DNA of 64,000 bases from Chloroflexota bacterium (GTDB taxonomy: Bacteria; Chloroflexota; Dehalococcoidia; Bin125). Location: the NCBI GenBank assembly GCA_028875225.1, contig JAPPFB010000011.1:1-64000 (forward strand), given 5' to 3'. A program made the position numbers and the translations under genes. This document shows, piece after piece, positions 1,633-53,611 of this stretch. Within the stretch, counting starts at the first letter, position 1; each line of letters starts with the position of its first letter. The notes under the pieces were generated by a model. It made no database searches. It worked only from the letters and a program-made list of their open reading frames with translations, and was not told where the DNA came from.

Positions 1633-5955
<4,323 letters not shown>

Positions 5956-5993
5956 GGCCTGCTCACTTGTACAGACATCAGACCAAAGTGCCG

Positions 5994-6023
5994 TCATTGC
6001 CGCGCCTGCCGCGGCAATCTCGC
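5994..6023. repeat. dispersed palindromic repeat, family C
   Basis: GTCATTGCCGCG...CGCGGCAATCTCG hairpin between the convergent lhr and recQ genes. The stem could double as a bidirectional terminator, although no T-tract follows. The rest of the 5956-6124 gap shows nothing further. Confidence 0.7.
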
Positions 6024-6124
6024 TGTGCTGCGCACTGACGTCCGTGGTGGACGCGGCGAGATACCAGCGGCAAGCGCGGGTATGTCGGAGCGTCGGCTAT
6101 CTCTTCGGCCGTTCCGATCAGGCC

Positions 6125-8308
6125 CTAATCGTCAACGAGCTCTGGCGGTCGCAGGTGCGCCTCGACGATCCGCAACTCGGCCCGCGACAAGCGGTACTCG
6201 AGCCGCTCGTGCAGCACCGACATGCTCGCGTCGGGATCGGCAGATAGGAGACGACGCACCATCTGCACCATCTCCGTCGACGGCAACGCCGGACCCAGGT
6301 CTAACTCCGCGCCATTGCGCATCGCCGTCACGAGGTGCGATGCGACCGTGCCCGGCGACAGCATCCTGCGCTCGGCGATGGCCAGCAAGGTGTGACCGGA
6401 CTGATACAGATCCAGCGTGGTTGCCCAGCTCTGCAGAGCCGGCTCCCCGCTCACCTGGACATCCACAGAAGGCTGTGCCGCCGAATCGGGAACGCCGACG
6501 ATCAGCGCCAGCTCTTCGGCGTAGCGCTCGCTCGCGAGCGAGCCGACGCCCTCGACGGTTGACAGTTCCTGTGTCGATGCCGGCGTCTGCTGCGCCAGTT
6601 GGCGCATCGCCGCGAAGGTCAGGAGCTCGGATGGATCGCAGTGCTCGTTGGCGGTGGTCATGGTTCGCCACTCGGCCAGGGCGTTGAAGCGCTGTTGCCA
6701 ACCCTCGGGCGGCGCGTCAAGAGCCAACTGGGTTTCCTCGGGAGCGCTGTCCGAAGCGGCCATCGACTCTCCCGGGGCATGTTGCGCAACCACGTTGAGC
6801 AGCTCTTGACCGAACCTGGCCGCCTTGCGATGACGGATGCCTTTGATCTCGATCAGTTCGGGAATCGAACGGGGTCGGCGGCGGGCGATGTCCGCCAGCT
6901 CGCGATTGCTGGCGACGATGTAGGCCGACACGCCCTCGTTGCTCGCCAGCCGTGACCGCTCCTGGCGCAGCGCCTCGTACAAGCGCTCTTCATCTGGATT
7001 CAGGGGTCTGGAATCGCCGTCGCCCGGAGGAGCGGGCGGATCATCGGGGTCAACGAGTCGAGGACTCTCTGCTTCCACGTCTGTCGTCTCCTCGCCGAGG
7101 CAGTTGTCGCAATGTCCGCATTGCGCCGCGGCTGGCTGCTCGCCGAAGTACTGCAGGATCGTCGACCAGCGGCACGGCGACTGTTCGCTGAAGTTCATCA
7201 TCGTGCGCAGGCGATTGATTCGCTGCTGCCGCTCGCCGTCGTCGGTGAGCTGGTTGATGAAGAACATCTGCTGATGCCAGACGCCCTTGGTGTAGAACAG
7301 CAGGCACTCCGACGGCTGCCCGTCGCGGCCCGCACGGCCGGTCTCCTGGTAGTAGGACTCGATCGATGGCGGCATATCGAGGTGCGCGACCAGGCGGATA
7401 TCCGGTTTGTCAATCCCCATGCCAAACGCGATCGTGGCGCAGATCACCGGCGTCTCGCCGTTCAGGAACCGATCCTGGACCCCGTGCCGGTCCTGGCCAT
7501 TCATCCCGGCGTGGTAGTACTCGGCCCTGATCCCGCGCTGGCGCAGACCTTCTGCGGTCTTCTCGGTGCTGCGACGCGACTGGCTGTAGATGATCGCCGC
7601 ACCCGTGTCTATTCGCTTCAGCCGCGCCGCCAGCCGATCCACTGCCTTGCGCTTGGGGAGCACACGCAGCGTGAGGTTGTCGCGCATGAAACTGGTGATG
7701 AAGGTCCGCATGCGCGGACGATCAAGCTGCTCCACGATGTCGCGCTGGACCTGGGGCGTCGCCGTGGCCGTGCAGGCGACGGTCGGCACGTCGACGAATC
7801 GCTCGGTCAGCCGACGCAGTACCCGGTAGTCGGGACGAAACTCGTGCCCCCACTCCGAGATGCAGTGCGCCTCGTCGATCGCGATCAGGTTCGGATTGCG
7901 GCGTTCGAGCAGATTGCGGAAGCGGTCGGTGTTGACGCGCTCTGGCGCGACGTAGAGCAGCTTGACTGCTCCGTCCACCACCTCCCGCTCAACCTGCGCG
8001 GTTTCCATCGGCGAGAGGGTGCTGTTCAGATACTGCGCGTTGGCGCCGGCTCGCTGCAGCGCCATCACCTGGTCGTGCATCAGCGCGATCAGCGGCGAGA
8101 CCACGACGGTCAGACCATCCGAGAGAATGGCCGGCAACTGGTAGCAGAGCGACTTGCCCCCGCCGGTCGGCATCAGGACCAGCGCATCGCCACCGCCGAG
8201 CACGTGCTCAATCGTCTCCCGCTGCTGCGGTCGGAAGGAGTCGTAGCCGTAAGAATCGCTGAGCGCGGCGAGGAGAGGATCAATCTCCACCGGAGAGGCT
8301 TCGCTCAC
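6125..8308 (-). CDS. recQ: RecQ ATP-dependent DNA helicase
   Basis: A 727-residue RecQ helicase, 3'-5' DNA unwinding in recombination and repair. Walker A PTGGGKS lies at 47-53 and DEAHCISEWGHEFRPDY at about 145-161. An arginine-finger motif (YYQETGRAGRDG) and a zinc-binding cluster ending CGHCDNC (near 400) follow. An HRDC domain starts near 440 (LNPDEERLYEALR), then comes a second HRDC-like segment and a C-terminal helix-turn-helix-like region (SGHTLLAIAERRMLSPGTVASHL). It starts with GTG. It lies 70 bases downstream of the first selenoprotein-like gene in the same direction, so it may be co-transcribed. Confidence 0.94.
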   Translation of the reverse strand: MSEASPVEIDPLLAALSDSYGYDSFRPQQRETIEHVLGGGDALVLMPTGGGKSLCYQLPAILSDGLTVVVSPLIALMHDQVMALQRAGANAQYLNSTLSPMETAQVEREVVDGAVKLLYVAPERVNTDRFRNLLERRNPNLIAIDEAHCISEWGHEFRPDYRVLRRLTERFVDVPTVACTATATPQVQRDIVEQLDRPRMRTFITSFMRDNLTLRVLPKRKAVDRLAARLKRIDTGAAIIYSQSRRSTEKTAEGLRQRGIRAEYYHAGMNGQDRHGVQDRFLNGETPVICATIAFGMGIDKPDIRLVAHLDMPPSIESYYQETGRAGRDGQPSECLLFYTKGVWHQQMFFINQLTDDGERQQRINRLRTMMNFSEQSPCRWSTILQYFGEQPAAAQCGHCDNCLGEETTDVEAESPRLVDPDDPPAPPGDGDSRPLNPDEERLYEALRQERSRLASNEGVSAYIVASNRELADIARRRPRSIPELIEIKGIRHRKAARFGQELLNVVAQHAPGESMAASDSAPEETQLALDAPPEGWQQRFNALAEWRTMTTANEHCDPSELLTFAAMRQLAQQTPASTQELSTVEGVGSLASERYAEELALIVGVPDSAAQPSVDVQVSGEPALQSWATTLDLYQSGHTLLAIAERRMLSPGTVASHLVTAMRNGAELDLGPALPSTEMVQMVRRLLSADPDASMSVLHERLEYRLSRAELRIVEAHLRPPELVDD

Positions 8309-13813: not shown

Positions 13814-15240
13814 GCGGCGGCCTCCCGCAACGCCCTCATCTCCGGAGCGTCGATGTCGCCGTCGGCCCACAAGTCCCTGGCTCGTCGGAACGACGCCTTC
13901 GCCTCCTCCAGGTCCCCCTTCGCGGTCTGCAGGCGGCCCCAGCGGAAGAGGTCGCGAGGCGTGGCGCCGCGATCGAGCCGCTCCCGGAGCAACTCCATCG
14001 CTTCCTCGGTCTGACCGGCTCGCAGCCGCGCTTCGACCAGCGTCTCTTCAAACACGTCGCGCTGCGCGTTGGAGCCGCCCAGTGTGACCAACAGGTCGCG
14101 GACATCCGAGAGGCCGCGGGCGGCGGAGTCGTAGTCGCCCTCGGCAAAGGACGACAGCGCCTGCACGACCGGGGCGACGACCGTGCCGGCCGTCGTGTGA
14201 CCACGTTCGGCTGCCTCATTCAGACCGTCCAGCAGGTTGCCCAGGCCAACCGCGTCGCCGAGCGCGGCCAACGCCATCGCGCGGTGGACGTCGACCCAAG
14301 CCGTACCGGGACGTGGGAAGGCCGACTCGGCCAGATCGGCGATCGCGCGCCAGTCGGGATGGTCGGCGCCATTGCCCCCGATCGAGTCGTGCAGCCGGCA
14401 GCGCCAGAGCAGGGAGGCGGCATCGGCGACGCCGCCCAACGCGTCGCCCTGCACGTCGGCGCCGGGCCGGATCGTCTCGTCGTGCAGCGCCAGCGCCTCC
14501 GAGCGCTTGCCGTTGGCCAGCAGGAAGAGCGCCTGGTGCCAGGTCAGATGACGATAGAAGCCGGCCCGCTCGGGGAACTCGGCGAGCCAGCCGCCGAGGA
14601 ATCCGGCGCCGCCGTGCAGGTCGTGATCCTCGAAGAAGACGTGCGACATCGCGTGGGCGGCCTGACCGTTCTGGCGTCGGAGATCGAGTGATCGCTGAAC
14701 CAGCCCGCGCGCCCGCTCAAGCTGGTCCATCTCATGATTAGCGAAGGCGTGCCAGCTCAGGAACCACCAGTCGTCGCCGTAGGCGGACGCCAGGCGGTCG
14801 AACTGGTCCAGCATTCGCTCGCGTTTCTCGACGCCGCCGCCGTAAAAGTTGGCGCCGAACCACTGCATCAGGATCGGAGCGTCGCGCGGCGTCTCGCCCA
14901 GATGCTCATCGATCAGCGCCGGCGCCTGCGACGCCTTGCCTCGGGCGGTCGCGCCGAGGATGGCAACGTGACGTTGTTCTCGAGGAGTTGTCCCGTCGGC
15001 CAGTTCATGCGCCTGGTTGGCCAGCTCGGCCGCTCGTTTGCCCTGGCCGCGAAACAGATAGAACAGACCGAGCTGTGAGTGAGCCAGGGCGAAGCCGGGG
15101 TCGAGTTCGATCGCGCGTTCCAGCGCCTCTTCGACGCCGAGCGTGTAGGAGAGCATCCGATCCACGCCCAGCCGGTAGGCTTCGGCGGCTTCGTCGGAGG
15201 TCGTCAGGGGCAGTCCCCAGGCGTCATTGGGCAGGCTCAT
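13810..15240 (-). CDS. TPR protein resembling TTC38 family
   Basis: A 476-residue helical repeat protein. It opens with NDAWGLPLTTSDEAAEAY, like the start of tetratricopeptide repeat protein 38. TPR-like helices follow (ALERAIELDPGFALAHSQLG, then HAMSHVFFEDHDLHGGAGFL in the middle). The molecular role of this family is not established; TPR proteins generally hold partners. The ATG at 15240 follows GAGGAG by about seven bases and avoids overlap with the divergent gene at 15329. A further 39 codons are open upstream but lack family similarity. It is translationally coupled to clpS through GTGA, which suggests joint expression. Confidence 0.75.
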   Translation of the reverse strand: MSLPNDAWGLPLTTSDEAAEAYRLGVDRMLSYTLGVEEALERAIELDPGFALAHSQLGLFYLFRGQGKRAAELANQAHELADGTTPREQRHVAILGATARGKASQAPALIDEHLGETPRDAPILMQWFGANFYGGGVEKRERMLDQFDRLASAYGDDWWFLSWHAFANHEMDQLERARGLVQRSLDLRRQNGQAAHAMSHVFFEDHDLHGGAGFLGGWLAEFPERAGFYRHLTWHQALFLLANGKRSEALALHDETIRPGADVQGDALGGVADAASLLWRCRLHDSIGGNGADHPDWRAIADLAESAFPRPGTAWVDVHRAMALAALGDAVGLGNLLDGLNEAAERGHTTAGTVVAPVVQALSSFAEGDYDSAARGLSDVRDLLVTLGGSNAQRDVFEETLVEARLRAGQTEEAMELLRERLDRGATPRDLFRWGRLQTAKGDLEEAKASFRRARDLWADGDIDAPEMRALREAAA

Positions 15241-15328
15241 CAATCGCTCCTCGGCATCCCGGTGTCGCGCTAAGCGTAACTGCCAGTCCCACTCCACTGC
15301 CGGGACAACTGGATAGGCTGCGAGGGCG

Positions 15329-16315
15329 ATGCCCACCCTCGAGGAACCGGGAATCATCAGTCAAGCGCCGCATCTCGCGGAGCTGATCGGTTCGATTCCG
15401 CCGCAGACCATCGATCAGGACCGCGCCCGCGGCGTGCTGCTCGGACTGGCGGTCGGCAACCTGCTCGGCCTGCCCGTCGAGGGCGCGAGCCGCTCGACCA
15501 TTCGACGCGCCTACCCGGATGGCCTGCGCGAGATTGATCCGCGTGAGCGCCATCGGCCGATGGACGATGACCTGGCGCAGGCGGTCGACCTGGCCGAAGC
15601 GCTGGCGCACGATCCGGAACCGCTTGCAGGCTTTGCCGACCGCCTCGTCAAATGGCGCTCAGACAACGGGCGCGGTATCGGAATCATGACGTCAACCGTG
15701 ATCGACTACCTGGAGGTCGGGCTTGGCGTACCCGGCGCGTCCAGAGCTTTCTGGCAGGAGCGCGGCAGCCCCGAGACCCAGCCCAACGGCGCGCTGATGC
15801 GCTGCGCTCCCGTAGCGCTGTGGCACGCGCTGGAGCCGTCAACGCTGATCGAGCAGACTGCGGCCTCCTGCGCCGTGACCCACTTCGCGCCCGGCGCGCA
15901 ATGGTCGTGCATCCTGGTCAATGCCGCCATTGCCATGCTGCTCCGAGGATATGTACCGAGCCGCGACGACCTGATCTTCGCCGCCGCGCAGAACGGCGCG
16001 CCAGCCGAACTGATCGCCTGGACGCTGGCGATCCCCGACGCAATCGACGAACGGATCGCCGAAGAGCGAGTCAGCGGCCATACCTACCTCTGCATGCAGG
16101 CGGCGCTCTGGTGCCTGGACACGAATGACAGCATCGAGCAGGCGCTGGTCCGCATTGTCAGCGGCGGGGGCGACACCGACACCAACGCGGCCGTCGCCGG
16201 CGCGGTGCTGGGCGCGCGCTTCGGCGCGTCGGCCATTCCCCAACGCTGGCTGGACTGCATCCCCGAACGCGAGCGGATCGAGGCGGCGACCAGGTCGCTG
16301 CTAAAGCGCTCGTAG
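15329..16315 (+). CDS. ADP-ribosylglycohydrolase family protein
   Basis: A 328-residue DraG-like hydrolase. Family members remove ADP-ribose from proteins or small molecules using two metal ions. Seen in the sequence: DRARGVLLGLAVGNLLGLPVEG near the start, an acidic MDDDLAQA (about residues 71-78) in the place of the usual TDDT metal motif, and GGDTDTNAAVAGAVLGA near 275-290, the second metal motif. A GAGGGCG precedes the ATG. It is divergent from the TPR/clpS pair and convergent with the SDR genes. No ADP-ribosyltransferase is adjacent, although a Fic protein lies 3 kb away. Confidence 0.88.
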   Translation: MPTLEEPGIISQAPHLAELIGSIPPQTIDQDRARGVLLGLAVGNLLGLPVEGASRSTIRRAYPDGLREIDPRERHRPMDDDLAQAVDLAEALAHDPEPLAGFADRLVKWRSDNGRGIGIMTSTVIDYLEVGLGVPGASRAFWQERGSPETQPNGALMRCAPVALWHALEPSTLIEQTAASCAVTHFAPGAQWSCILVNAAIAMLLRGYVPSRDDLIFAAAQNGAPAELIAWTLAIPDAIDERIAEERVSGHTYLCMQAALWCLDTNDSIEQALVRIVSGGGDTDTNAAVAGAVLGARFGASAIPQRWLDCIPERERIEAATRSLLKRS

Positions 16316-16325
16316 TGGGTGAGGT

Positions 16326-17132
16326 TCAGACCCGGGCGGTCGCCGCGCCGTCGACGGCGATGATCTCGCCGGTAATGAACCCGGAGTCGGCAGCCAGCGC
16401 AACCACCGCCGGGCCGACATCCTCGGGCTTGACCAGCGCCTTGGCCGGCAGCATGCGCGCCACCTGTTGGACCGTCTCGGGGTCGTCGCCGAAGCCGTGC
16501 TGGCCCTCGTAGATGCCGACCTGCAGCGCATTGACCGTGATCCCCGAACGGGCCCACTCCTGTGACAGTGCCCGTGTCAGCGCCAGCACCCCTGCGTGCG
16601 CGGCTGCGTAGGACGACGTATTGGCGACTCCGCGAGCCGCGAGCACTGAGACCAGATTGACGATCCGGCCGTAGCCGTTGACCTTCATCACTCGCGCCGC
16701 CGCGCGCGCCGTCATGGCCGGGGCGAGCAGATTGGCGTCCAGGATCGCGTGCCAATCATCGGGCGTCAGTTCATCCAGCGGCGCCGCGACCGGCAGGTCG
16801 GCCGCATTGACCAAGATGTCGAGTCGGCCCAGCTCCGAGCTGGTCCGCGCGACGGCCGCGTCGACGCTGTTCGCGTCCGATGCGTCGAGCGTGATCGCGA
16901 CGTTGGCCCGGCCCAGCGACCAGATCTCGTTGGCGACCGAGTTGACGCGCACCACTTCCTGTGGTCCCGCGCGCAAGCTGGCCACGGCCACGTCGGCCCC
17001 GGCCTCGGCCAACGCGACTGCAGCGGCGCGGCCCAGTGGATCGCCCGCGCCAACGACCAGCGCGACCCGGCCCTTGAGCAAGAATGGATCTTGAGGTTCC
17101 TCGGGATTGGGAGTCGGGACGAAGTCGGACAT
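16326..17132 (-). CDS. SDR-family protein with degraded active site
   Basis: A 268-residue Rossmann-fold short-chain dehydrogenase homologue. The cofactor motif is GAGDPLGRA (near 28-36) and the usual NNAG is NAAD (109-112). The catalytic YxxxK is Y175-AAA-H179, so the lysine is replaced by histidine. The C-terminal GEIIAVDGA segment is kept. It lies 11 bases downstream of a canonical SDR on the same strand. Such active/inactive pairs are known to form mixed oligomers in BbsCD-type dehydrogenases. Catalysis by this subunit alone is doubtful; a structural role is inference. Confidence 0.85.
   Translation of the reverse strand: MSDFVPTPNPEEPQDPFLLKGRVALVVGAGDPLGRAAAVALAEAGADVAVASLRAGPQEVVRVNSVANEIWSLGRANVAITLDASDANSVDAAVARTSSELGRLDILVNAADLPVAAPLDELTPDDWHAILDANLLAPAMTARAAARVMKVNGYGRIVNLVSVLAARGVANTSSYAAAHAGVLALTRALSQEWARSGITVNALQVGIYEGQHGFGDDPETVQQVARMLPAKALVKPEDVGPAVVALAADSGFITGEIIAVDGAATARV

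Positions 17133-47476: not shown

Positions 47477-47480
<4 letters not shown>
47130..47480 (+). CDS. hspR: HspR-type MerR-family heat-shock repressor
   Basis: A 116-residue MerR-like regulator. The winged helix reads TIRIAAQLVGVHQQTLRTYE and GLLTPARSAGRQRLYSEQDI, then a coiled tail (INELEQENQQLKDELQRQRD). In known systems HspR represses dnaK or clpB operons and is assisted by DnaK. Placement between dnaJ and clpC supports self-regulation of this operon. The start at 47130 is fixed by the four-base overlap with dnaJ; the stop overlaps clpC likewise. Confidence 0.88.
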
Positions 47481-49915
<2,435 letters not shown>

Positions 49916-50214: not shown

Positions 50215-50547
50215 TTAGGGAGGCTCGTCCTCATCCTGAGTGGATTCCTCGTCAGCTTCGTCGTCCTGCTCGGATTCGGCCTTGGCCCTGGCCGCGGCCT
50301 CTTCCCTGGCCATCAGCGCGTCGAGCTCGGCGTCGCTCATGGCGGCGATGGCGAGGTTCGGATCGGGCGGTTCCGATTCGGGTTGGGGGGCGGACAGGTC
50401 GGGCTGCTGGGGACGCGGAAAGAGGTCGAGCAGCCGGGCGAGCGAGTCGAGCGCCCGGACCTGCGCGTAACCGCGTTCCTTGGGGTCGTTTGCGATCGCC
50501 CAGTAACGATCCTGGATGTCCTGCTGACCTGGTTGTGGGTTGCTCAT
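50215..50547 (-). CDS. small acidic protein, possibly terminase small-subunit-like
   Basis: A 110-residue protein. The middle (RYWAIANDPKERGYAQVRAL then DSLARLLDLFPRP) resembles the C-terminal helices of phage small terminase subunits (ALELLGKHLGLF-type). The rest is a strongly acidic, Glu/Ala-rich tail ending ESTQDEDEPP. ATG at 50547 is chosen over an in-frame start 23 codons earlier because the leader lacks pattern. It is divergent from the large terminase gene, unusual for a TerS/TerL pair. The family call is tentative. Confidence 0.45.
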   Translation of the reverse strand: MSNPQPGQQDIQDRYWAIANDPKERGYAQVRALDSLARLLDLFPRPQQPDLSAPQPESEPPDPNLAIAAMSDAELDALMAREEAAARAKAESEQDDEADEESTQDEDEPP

Positions 50548-50768: not shown

Positions 50769-52307
50769 TTGAGGATGGTTGATTTCGCAGAACGGCGGAC
50801 CTGGCGGCGAATCACCGGGTTGCACAAGCATCGGAAGTTCTCTCTGACCAATCGCCAGGAACAGCTCTACGACTCGCTCCTCAGCACCTCCTGCCCGCCC
50901 GACGGCCACGATTCCGGCGCGGACCGCCTGACCTTGCTCGGCTATGGCGGTGCGATGGGCGGGGGCAAGACGCGGGCGATCGCCGAACTCGCCATCGACG
51001 CTGCGCTCGCTTTCCCCGGCAACAACGTGCTCGTCGCCCGGCACCACCTCTCCGACCTCTCCTCAACCACGATGAAAGAGTTCTTCGCTCACTGCCCGAC
51101 CGAGCTGATCGACCGCCGCCAGCAAGCTCCGACCCAGCTCGTCCAGCTCAGACTCCCCGAGTGGCCCGAGGGCCAGACCTCGACCGTCAACTTCCGCCAC
51201 CTCTCCGACTGGCGCGGACTCGGCTCGCAGCAGTACGGGGCGGTCCTGATCGACGAAGCGGGACAGGTCGAGGAGGACGCCGCCCTGATGCTGCTGACCC
51301 GGCTGCGGCATCCGGCCCAGCACCAGCGCTGGTTCGTGGCCGCCTCCAACCCCTGGCCGGGCTGGTTCCAGCGCTGGTTCGTCCAGCGCGAACTGCCCGA
51401 GGACGCCCTCCGCGCCGCCCAGGGCCAGGTCACCTTCATCCCCGCCAGGATTGAGGACAACCCCCACCTGCCCGAGAACTACGCCGAGGTCAACCACGCC
51501 CTGATGCCGCCGGCCTGGCGCGAGCGCTTCATCGAAGGCCGCTTCGACGCGCTGCTGGGCCGGGTCTACCCCGACTTCGACCCCAACATGCACCGCTGGG
51601 AACAGCCGCTGCCCCAATTCACGTATCTCATCGGCGGCCTCGACTTCGGCGGCCAGACCGAGTCCGCCCACCACACCGCCGCCATCGTCGCCGGGCTCGT
51701 CTCTCCGTCCCGACCCCCTTCCGGTCCCCTCTCCCCGAGGGAGAGGGCTAGGGTGAGGGCCGCCGAAGATTTCGCCAGATACAGAGGGAAGTCCCCCAAC
51801 CTCGCTGCCCCGCAACACCCAACCCACCCCTACACCCTGATCCGGCTGGCCGAGTTCGAGGACCGTGGCCCGGGCGTGATCCAGCGCCTCGAACAGTGGC
51901 AGCAGGCCTGCCAGCGCCGGCACGGCCGGATCCGCTGGGCCGCCGACCGCTCGCAGTCGGCCTGGATCGACCACCAGCGCCGACAGGGCATCGACGTCGT
52001 GCCCGCCTCCGGAGCGCCCGGCTCCATCCTCTACGGCGTCAACCTCGTCCATGAGCGACTGGCCTCGGACCCGCCCAGGTCCTTCTACCTACCGGAACTG
52101 ACCCAGTTCCCGCGGCGCATGAGCGAGTACGTCTGGCAATCGGGCGACGACCCCGATCCCAAACCGCGCAAGCAGAACGACGACCTGATCGACGCCGACC
52201 GCTACATGCACGAACTGCTCCAGCAGGTCCCCAGGCCCTTCCGGAGACGCCGCGTCCAGATCGTCCAACCGCCCCTCGGCCGAGACGCCCGCTGGCGAGA
52301 GCCGTGA
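50769..52307 (+). CDS. orphan phage-type terminase large subunit with embedded palindromic repeat
   Basis: A 512-residue TerL-like motor-nuclease. Walker A is GAMGGGKTRA (60-70), Walker B AVLIDEAGQ (near 158-166). The nuclease half has IGGLDFGGQT (first acidic residue near 294), WAADRSQSAWIDHQRRQGI, and KQNDDLIDADRYMHE, matching the last acidic motif. Phage terminases package DNA into capsids, but no portal, capsid or tail gene is here. Residues about 314-335 (SPSRPPSGPLSPRERARVRA) are encoded by a palindromic repeat inserted in frame. Start is TTG 50769 or ATG 50775. A gene-transfer-agent or prophage relic is possible. Confidence 0.78.
   Translation: MRMVDFAERRTWRRITGLHKHRKFSLTNRQEQLYDSLLSTSCPPDGHDSGADRLTLLGYGGAMGGGKTRAIAELAIDAALAFPGNNVLVARHHLSDLSSTTMKEFFAHCPTELIDRRQQAPTQLVQLRLPEWPEGQTSTVNFRHLSDWRGLGSQQYGAVLIDEAGQVEEDAALMLLTRLRHPAQHQRWFVAASNPWPGWFQRWFVQRELPEDALRAAQGQVTFIPARIEDNPHLPENYAEVNHALMPPAWRERFIEGRFDALLGRVYPDFDPNMHRWEQPLPQFTYLIGGLDFGGQTESAHHTAAIVAGLVSPSRPPSGPLSPRERARVRAAEDFARYRGKSPNLAAPQHPTHPYTLIRLAEFEDRGPGVIQRLEQWQQACQRRHGRIRWAADRSQSAWIDHQRRQGIDVVPASGAPGSILYGVNLVHERLASDPPRSFYLPELTQFPRRMSEYVWQSGDDPDPKPRKQNDDLIDADRYMHELLQQVPRPFRRRRVQIVQPPLGRDARWREP
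51711..51758 (+). repeat. palindromic repeat inside the terminase gene
   Basis: CCCCTCTCCCCGAGGGAGAGGG hairpin followed by CTAGGGTGAGGG. This type is normally intergenic. Here it keeps the frame and adds about 16 codons between two conserved nuclease segments. Confidence 0.75.
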
Positions 52308-52801
52308 GACACACCCTCATTGCCCCAAGTAGGCGCTCTCTCCCCTCCCGATCCCCCGCGCTTGACGCGGGGGCCAGGGCAGAGCACAACGCTCAGGAGA
52401 CGACGTCGCTCCCACCTCGGCTGCGGCTTGCGGATCCCGCGCGCGACAGTTCGGCCGCCGCTCCCGGCGGAGCGTCGCACAACGGCCGAGGTCTGGGCCC
52501 CGCATCAAGTGCGGGGCATCGGAGGGGGAGTGCGGCGCGTCGATTCCATCTTCCGATCCCCCGCGCTCGACGCGGGGGCCAGGGCAGAACACAACACTCA
52601 CAAGACGACGTCGCTCCCACCTCGGCTGCGGCTTGCGGATCCCGTGCGCGAGAGCTCGGCCGCGGCGTCCGGCGGAGCGTCGCACAACGGCCGAAGTCTG
52701 GGCCCCGCATCAAGTGCGGGGCATCGGAGGCCAATGCAGGGCGTCGGAGGGGGAGTGCGGCGCATATACACTCTGTTCGAGACCAACCACCTGGAGGCAG
52801 C
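52308..52801. other. repeat-filled gap of 494 bases without a gene
   Basis: The gap between the terminase and crotonase genes is mostly a tandem duplication (52349-52766). Open frames across it in several phases come from the repeat and carry no family similarity. A promoter and the GGAGG ribosome site for the crotonase must lie in the last 40 bases. Confidence 0.7.
52349..52766. repeat. tandem duplication, unit about 205 bases
   Basis: Unit 1 starts near 52349 and unit 2 near 52554. Both begin CGATCCCCCGCGCT, contain CTCCCACCTCGGCTGCGGCT, and end with CCCCGCATCAAGTGCGGGG plus GGGGGAGTGCGGCGC. They differ at scattered positions, and unit 2 has a short extra segment near its end. Each unit is itself bounded by family D palindromes. 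Confidence 0.85.
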
Positions 52802-53611
52802 ATGACCACCTTGACCGCTCCCGCGACCGAGACCTTGCTCTACGAGGAGCGCGGCCACGTCGCGATCATCACCCTCAACCGGCCCGAACGCCTCAACGCC
52901 ATCTCCGGCGAGATGCTCGAAGCGCTCTCCGCGCAGCTGATCGCCTGCCAGCGCGAGCCCGAGATCCGCGTCATCGTCCTGACCGGCGCCGGTCGCGGCT
53001 TCTGCTCCGGCCTGGACCTCGTCGACCAGCAGCAGCGCATGTCGGCCGGCGACGGACGGCCCGGCTACAGCCTGTTCGACCTGCGCGACGCGCCGCCGGT
53101 CGTACTGCAGCGCATGGACAAGCCCGTCATCTGCGCGCTCAACGGCGCGGCCGCCGGATACGGCATGGACATGGCCCTGCTGGCCGACATCCGGATCGCG
53201 TCCGACCGCGCGAAGATGGGCGCCGTCTTCGCCCGGCGCGGCGTGCTGCCCGAATCGGGCGGCACCTGGATCCTGCCCCGACTGCTCGGCTGGGCACGCG
53301 CCGCCGAGGTCGCCTTCCGCGGCCGCGTGCTCGACGCCCAGGAATCGCTCGACGTCGGCCTGGTCAACGAGATCGTCCCCCACGACGACCTGATGACCCG
53401 CGCGCTCGAACTGGCCGACGAGATCGCCGCCAACGCCCCGCTCTCGGTCCAGGCGACCAAGCGGATGATGCGCCTCGGCATGGACGAACCGTTCGAGGCC
53501 GCCGTCGACCACATCTACCTGCAGCTCCTGCCCCTCTTCCAGTCCGACGACTTCAAAGAAGGCGTCCGCTCGTTCATGGAGAAGCGGGAGCCGAACTTCC
53601 AGGGGCGGTAA
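52802..53611 (+). CDS. enoyl-CoA hydratase/isomerase (crotonase) family
   Basis: A 269-residue crotonase. VAIITLNRPERLNAISGEML at the start, oxyanion hole GAGRGFCSGLDL (near 61-72) and LNGAAAGYGMDMALLADIRI. The hydratase glutamates are partly visible: a glutamate in RRGVLPESGGTWILPRL matches the second catalytic position. ATG at 52802 has GGAGG six bases upstream; the frame is open upstream only through repeat sequence. Likely acts on an acyl-CoA intermediate. A family B repeat follows its stop at once, then a DinB-like gene. Confidence 0.9.
   Translation: MTTLTAPATETLLYEERGHVAIITLNRPERLNAISGEMLEALSAQLIACQREPEIRVIVLTGAGRGFCSGLDLVDQQQRMSAGDGRPGYSLFDLRDAPPVVLQRMDKPVICALNGAAAGYGMDMALLADIRIASDRAKMGAVFARRGVLPESGGTWILPRLLGWARAAEVAFRGRVLDAQESLDVGLVNEIVPHDDLMTRALELADEIAANAPLSVQATKRMMRLGMDEPFEAAVDHIYLQLLPLFQSDDFKEGVRSFMEKREPNFQGR

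Follow-up and report, generated by a model that had tools for sequence, protein, structure and literature searches.

A terminase large subunit of a Dehalococcoidia genus with a nuclease-domain loop that has probably been entered repeatedly by dispersed palindromes

The large terminase (TerL) gene of the window, i.e., of the whole stretch of 64,000 nucleotides that was analysed, contains in frame a short palindromic repeat that is dispersed through the genome and absent from the orthologue at the same locus of a congener. The explanation that we regard as probable is a domesticated terminase pair under purifying selection, in which a permissive turn of the nuclease domain has repeatedly been invaded by dispersed palindromes. 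The following scheme is proposed: (i) TerL would belong, as large subunit, to a terminase pair domesticated from a phage in a sponge-associated Dehalococcoidia genus; (ii) one turn of its nuclease domain, putatively at the surface, would tolerate foreign peptide; (iii) dispersed GC-rich palindromes, REP/MITE-like and non-autonomous, would enter this turn again and again; (iv) in the genome of the window, a type-A copy would have entered in the one sense frame that is open and lengthened the protein by 16 residues (GPLSPRERARVRA and its edges). The distance of the turn from the motor and the catalytic residues may keep TerL functional.

The genome of the window (G000; 3.22 Mb in 29 contigs) is one of 15 genomes of the genus, and homologues are designated by genome and contig (e.g., G010C7). 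The named near relatives are all metagenome-assembled genomes of Dehalococcoidia/Chloroflexota, which, judging from isolate names such as bin125, we take to originate from marine sponges.

The terminase genes

Counted from TTG 50769, the TerL reading frame comprises 512 amino acids; ATG 50775, two codons inside, is the likelier start. The protein matches Terminase_3 (2.4e-8) and Terminase_6N (9.7e-8) in Pfam and the terminase large subunit family phrog_2 in PHROG (1.3e-25). The large terminase of phage D6E (PDB 5oe8, 5oe9, 5oea) is the sole relative of solved structure found by profile (6.8e-11) and also tops a fold search with the TerL model; it shares the motor and nuclease architecture, although identity in the fold alignment is only ~15% and the TerL of the window is chromosomal, with no portal beside it. 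TerL has the architecture of a motor and an RNase H-like nuclease with conserved acidic residues, and its motifs are intact, as had been noted earlier from the letters alone: an alignment of 27 homologues shows no variation in Walker A, in the key Walker B residues or in the acidic residues of the nuclease.

50769..52307, plus strand: large terminase (TerL) gene; Pfam, PHROG and PDB-profile matches, 27-sequence alignment
50940..50972, plus strand: Walker A segment GYGGAMGGGKT, unchanged across the 27 homologues
51243..51260, plus strand: Walker B segment VLIDEA; V, D, E and A unchanged across the 27 homologues
51642..51644, plus strand: first nuclease aspartate (IGGLDFGG); D unchanged across the 27 homologues
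51852..51854, plus strand: second nuclease acidic position (AEFEDRG); E unchanged across the 27 homologues
52179..52199, plus strand: C-terminal nuclease acidic cluster DDLIDAD; D residues unchanged across the 27 homologues
50215..50547, minus strand: TerS-like reading frame, 110 amino acids, acidic tail ending DEDEPP; position, homologues, motif alignment

The gene had been described as an orphan; given the TerS-like reading frame 50547-50215, which is divergent relative to TerL, it appears rather to be one half of a terS-terL pair, and a lone TerL was rejected on account of the TerS-like frames beside TerL copies. Homologues of the small frame occur at the same place next to G010C7 (76%) and beside the TerL of G009C16 (54%). 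A motif, YVQ..A...LAR..GLF, is found in small reading frames that adjoin most of the TerL copies examined, frequently together with the acidic DEDEPP tail, and it also aligns with the Terminase_2 protein of a phage relative, which has an extra N-terminal part. The frame has no Pfam match and only a weak, unrelated one in PHROG (E 0.008). It is probably a small terminase without the DNA-binding part, an identification based on one short motif, position and the acidic tail; the small terminase of the R. capsulatus gene transfer agent (GTA), of ~107 amino acids, likewise lacks the N-terminal DNA-binding domain (PMC6854486).

A palindromic repeat in the nuclease domain

51696..51833, plus strand: hypervariable guest loop, 46 residues here (7-159 elsewhere); alignment and loop DNA of 30 homologues
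51719..51761 (core 51729-51758), plus strand: type-A palindromic repeat, reads GPLSPRERARVRA; 39 genomic copies, shared left flank, not in G010C7

The core of the repeat is CTCTCCCCGAGGGAGAGGGCTAGGGTGAGG, with arms and spacer CTCTCCC-CGA-GGGAGAGGGCTAGGGTGAGG. The 3.22-Mb genome contains 39 exact matches to the type-A pattern and none to the reversed control pattern; the left flank TTCCGGTCCC recurs in many of these copies, which makes the unit ~43 bp long (51719-51761). The reality of the palindrome is inferred from this copy number and not from folding energy, since sequence shuffled at constant composition folds as well as the hairpin (z -0.17). The earlier note had recognised in the repeat a type found in gaps; the five further copies of types A, B and C that the window contains all appear to lie in gaps or 5' extensions, outside genes. 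Directly 3' of TerL, at 52354-52735, a ~205-bp block with CCCCGC hairpins is present twice in direct orientation; it is related to a repeat dispersed across the genus.

The nearest TerL homologue, G010C7 (81% identity), occupies the same site between clpB and echA and has no palindrome. Its guest loop has 30 residues, exactly 16 fewer than that of the window, so that the addition of about 16 codons without loss of frame had been read correctly with respect to this homologue; compared with uninserted homologues, the loop of the window is 35 residues longer. The same insert was found in none of the homologues, several of which hold another palindrome in the same loop. In the sense direction, type A has a single open frame out of three, the one used in TerL; more of its frames are open in antisense.

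Probable repeated invasion of the guest loop

The loop was compared across 30 TerL homologues of related Dehalococcoidia. In 14 of them it measures 7-11 residues; in the remainder it spans 24-159 residues that are mostly unrelated from lineage to lineage. G001C14 is one of the homologues without an insert. Strict patterns place type B in the loops of G011C4a, G005C59, G014C32, G004C24, G011C4b and G009C16 (three copies) and type C in that of G006C6. Single genomes hold up to 159 copies of type B, 33 of type C and 81 of type A, and the control patterns matched nowhere. Altogether, the TerL cores contain 10 repeats, as opposed to 1.4 expected at random (Poisson P 2e-6), and all 10 lie within the guest loop in the sense orientation. 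The expectation is conservative, because the repeats' avoidance of genes was ignored; shared ancestry acts the opposite way, and reduced counts were therefore also tested (P 6e-4 if seven are independent, 0.015 if five). Since types B and C are alike in design, what is counted here as several families may amount to two superfamilies.

The structure model puts the guest loop at a distance from the motor, between strands 299-308 and 353-363 of the nuclease domain; the first nuclease aspartate is on the strand that precedes the loop's own strand pair. The insert is modelled as a turn that links two strands, but confidence is low there, and the model is mediocre overall (mean pLDDT 64; much of the insert region <50). 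The loop inserts of G010C7, G002C22, G013 and G014C31 show no recognisable dispersed palindrome, and loop growth must therefore have other causes, too. The motif of the G013 loop had been considered as a further palindrome family (pattern D) and was dropped because it is not dispersed.

The phenomenon extends to two proteins other than TerL, in which the same site is invaded by different types in different species and for which uninserted homologues exist. Both genes are on contig C28 of G000 (L031):

5418-6338: MaoC-like gene with palindromes at the same site, types differing by species
14262-16709: two-domain CoA-transferase-like gene with palindromes at the same site, types differing by species

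The loop of the MaoC-like protein reads TTRVTSTDGGVEF in G010 and TTRVTPLPPLGGDAEGRGGHSGVEF in G000; in G004 and G011, it accommodates another insert, of type B. In the CoA-transferase-like protein, the linker holds type C in G000 and G006, type B in G010, G011 and G014, and type A in G013.

Palindromes that encode part of a protein have been described mainly in Rickettsia and Wolbachia. In the palindromic elements of these genera (RPE in Rickettsia), as here, several dispersed families reside in frame within protein genes, and the proposal that the repeat in TerL resembles them is supported genus-wide by the nearest homologue without insert and by the other palindromes in the same loop. RPE units measure ~100-150 bp as opposed to ~40-50 bp here, the phylum and presumably also the sequence are different, and the coding orientation is uniformly sense in the present case; length and taxonomic distance speak against a place among the RPE proper. 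With REP/MITE-like GC-rich palindromes, the repeats have in common that they are short dispersed hairpins, mostly in gaps and often in inverted pairs, but a subset is in frame inside conserved proteins. Occupation of one locus by different families is reported for RPE-4/6/7, where the sites are exposed to solvent (PMC3767692, PMC10969869). Whether shared sites are insertion hotspots or reflect one old, diverged insertion was left undecided for Rickettsia (PMC3767692).

A single ancient insertion, i.e., an ancestral loop palindrome from which types A, B and C arose by divergence or by recombinational conversion with dispersed copies, as has analogously been proposed for RPE-4/6/7 (PMC3767692), seems unlikely for TerL. 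The common architecture of types B and C, the plausibility of gene conversion between dispersed repeats and similar insert-flanking residues in G004C24 and G011C4b would be in keeping with it. However, uninserted 11-residue loops (G000C28, G010C46, G007C83, G008C100) belong to close relatives of the inserted G009C11, G011C4b and G003C141, insertion points vary within the loop, and the MaoC-like protein of G010, unlike that of G000, G004 and G011, has no insert. Distinct families in the same loop, with close relatives empty, favour repeated invasion of a permissive site.

Possible remnants of a virion

The absence of further virion genes, as stated in the earlier note, is correct for the window if the frame 50547-50215 is set aside. 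Elsewhere in the genome, contig C28 (L031) carries a TerS-like frame and a second TerL and, 8 kb further, scaffold-like and capsid-like genes.

9058-10329 of L031: second TerL of G000, with a nonsense codon just before Walker A
17725-18606 of L031: capsid-like protein, 293 amino acids, ~8 kb from this TerL with CoA-transferase-like genes between

The nonsense codon is possibly an assembly error; the copies of congeners are intact. The capsid-like gene is present as a single copy in 15 of 15 genomes of the genus (86-97% identity). Its product matches PHROG weakly (phrog_267, E 1e-3); it has no match among phage records, viral contigs or solved structures, and its fold model is unusable. A portal was found in G000 neither with PF04860 nor with a phage protein from the portal position, the latter search having no positive control. 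The advised search for portal and capsid genes thus yielded a weak capsid-like candidate in the C28 cluster and no portal in G000, which makes a working particle doubtful. The only Phage_portal match in the genus is in G003 (L069, C209), on another contig.

Among phage records, TerL has only distant matches (24-29% identity). TerL proteins of three IMG/VR viral contigs, L171-L173, are related over most of the length (38-40% identity); unlike in the window, a large reading frame follows directly or shortly downstream of TerL, in the usual place of the portal, and L173 has a recognisable Terminase_2 small subunit upstream.

Like GTAs of the RcGTA type, the genus has vertically inherited packaging genes of phage origin, and the ~110-residue TerS-like frame may correspond to their small terminase without a DNA-binding domain (PMC6854486). 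Vertical inheritance is indicated by the capsid-like gene in all 15 genomes and by a TerL tree that is broadly congruent with that of ClpB. Of the portal, capsid and tail genes of a GTA, no portal was found in G000 and the capsid-like match is weak; in contrast to RcGTA, the loci are scattered, and particles are hypothetical.

Selection and chromosomal addresses

47477..49915, plus strand: clpB-like chaperone gene, left boundary; orthologues adjoin echA in congeners
52802..53611, plus strand: enoyl-CoA hydratase-like gene (echA), right boundary; orthologues adjoin clpB in congeners

The TerL of the window belongs to a clade that is separate in the tree from the TerLs lying with the capsid-like gene; an intact member of this orphan clade is present in 10 of the 15 genomes, including G000 (two in G013). 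Its dN/dS, recommended earlier as a check, is 0.17 to the nearest homologue and 0.19-0.36 to others of the clade; between the two copies of G013, it is 0.02 (pN 0.007, pS 0.27). By these estimates, TerL is under purifying selection and not in decay. The two G013 copies (L035 and L036 on C13 and C14) are situated at contig ends and at different addresses, with 99% protein and 93% DNA identity.

A decaying prophage relic, i.e., the leftover TerL of a lost phage in which a palindrome inserted into dead, unselected coding sequence, is therefore disfavoured, and we consider it quite improbable. Portal, tail and lysis genes are indeed not seen in the window, the TerL of the C28 cluster is interrupted by a nonsense codon, and other contigs carry two truncated terS-terL stubs. 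Against decay speak, besides the dN/dS of 0.17-0.36 across the orphan clade and 0.02 between the copies of one assembly, the invariant motifs, the intact copies in 10 of 15 genomes and the preservation of the frame by the inserts in every full-length copy. The reading of a GTA part or a domesticated packaging motor, also put forward in the earlier note, appears preferable in view of the TerS-like partner, the broadly vertical inheritance and the ubiquitous capsid-like gene. TerL would then be active and may package host DNA in a GTA-like manner, and the palindromic insert would be a tolerated guest rather than a useful one.

The pair resides between clpB and echA in G000, G010, G005 and G013; in G002, G003, G004, G008 and G011, a short gap of 77-163 bp without terminase separates the two genes. 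In the same gap of G014 (L124), G001 (L126) and G006 (L125), there is a minus-strand TerS-like frame with no TerL beside it. Other addresses of the orphan clade are adjacent to purC (G011 and G013; a stub only in G000), a third in G001, G009 and G014, and a fourth in G002 and G006; one address is occupied by TerLs of two different clades. Two truncated stubs of terS and 5'-terL in G000 (L033 6700-8400 on C23; L032 7100-7930 on C26) are 96% identical over 678 bp, and that on C23 continues in frame into a purC-like gene.

Such a distribution might suggest that terS-terL pairs move as a unit among few chromosomal addresses, possibly as dispersed packaging start sites. Four genomes have the clpB-echA site filled and at least five have it empty, the orphan clade is found at four addresses at least, of which one also hosts another clade, and the stubs are nearly identical duplicates. 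Yet transposase, terminal repeats and target duplications were not recognised at the terminase addresses, and TerL history is broadly congruent with ClpB; ordinary duplication, recombination between flanking repeats and loss suffice for the pattern, and we give an itinerant module little credence.

Orientation of the coding copies

By a mechanical coding criterion applied to 733 kb of sequence, on which the coding/gap statistics are also based, all 15 in-gene repeats, 13 of them distinct, are in the sense orientation, which is not forced by stop codons. The bias may stem from strand-specific insertion or from selection for hydrophilic peptides. A selected linker, i.e., charge-rich sense peptides that are useful to the host protein so that only sense copies persist, would explain why 13 of 13 distinct coding copies are sense without being forced to it, but is very unlikely, as many orthologues have no insert and lengths (7-159 residues) and sequences vary freely. 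More speculative still, and hardly to be expected, is that each terS-terL pair is a chromosomal start site that feeds host DNA to capsid-like particles, with pairs re-sited between fixed addresses, and that, separately, the sense-only palindromes reflect strand-specific insertion into transcribed genes.

Implications

A literature search found no paper on such repeats in Chloroflexota or on orphan terminases, and protein-coding palindromes in prokaryotes other than those mentioned are a matter of speculation only in a review (PMC10969869). The repeats described here place the Rickettsia-like behaviour of protein-invading palindromes in a different phylum, and existing genomes make it possible to test insertion hotspots against one old insertion. 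That the coding copies are all sense stands out as a regularity. The conserved capsid-like gene and the terminase pairs point to a reduced, GTA-like remnant in sponge symbionts.
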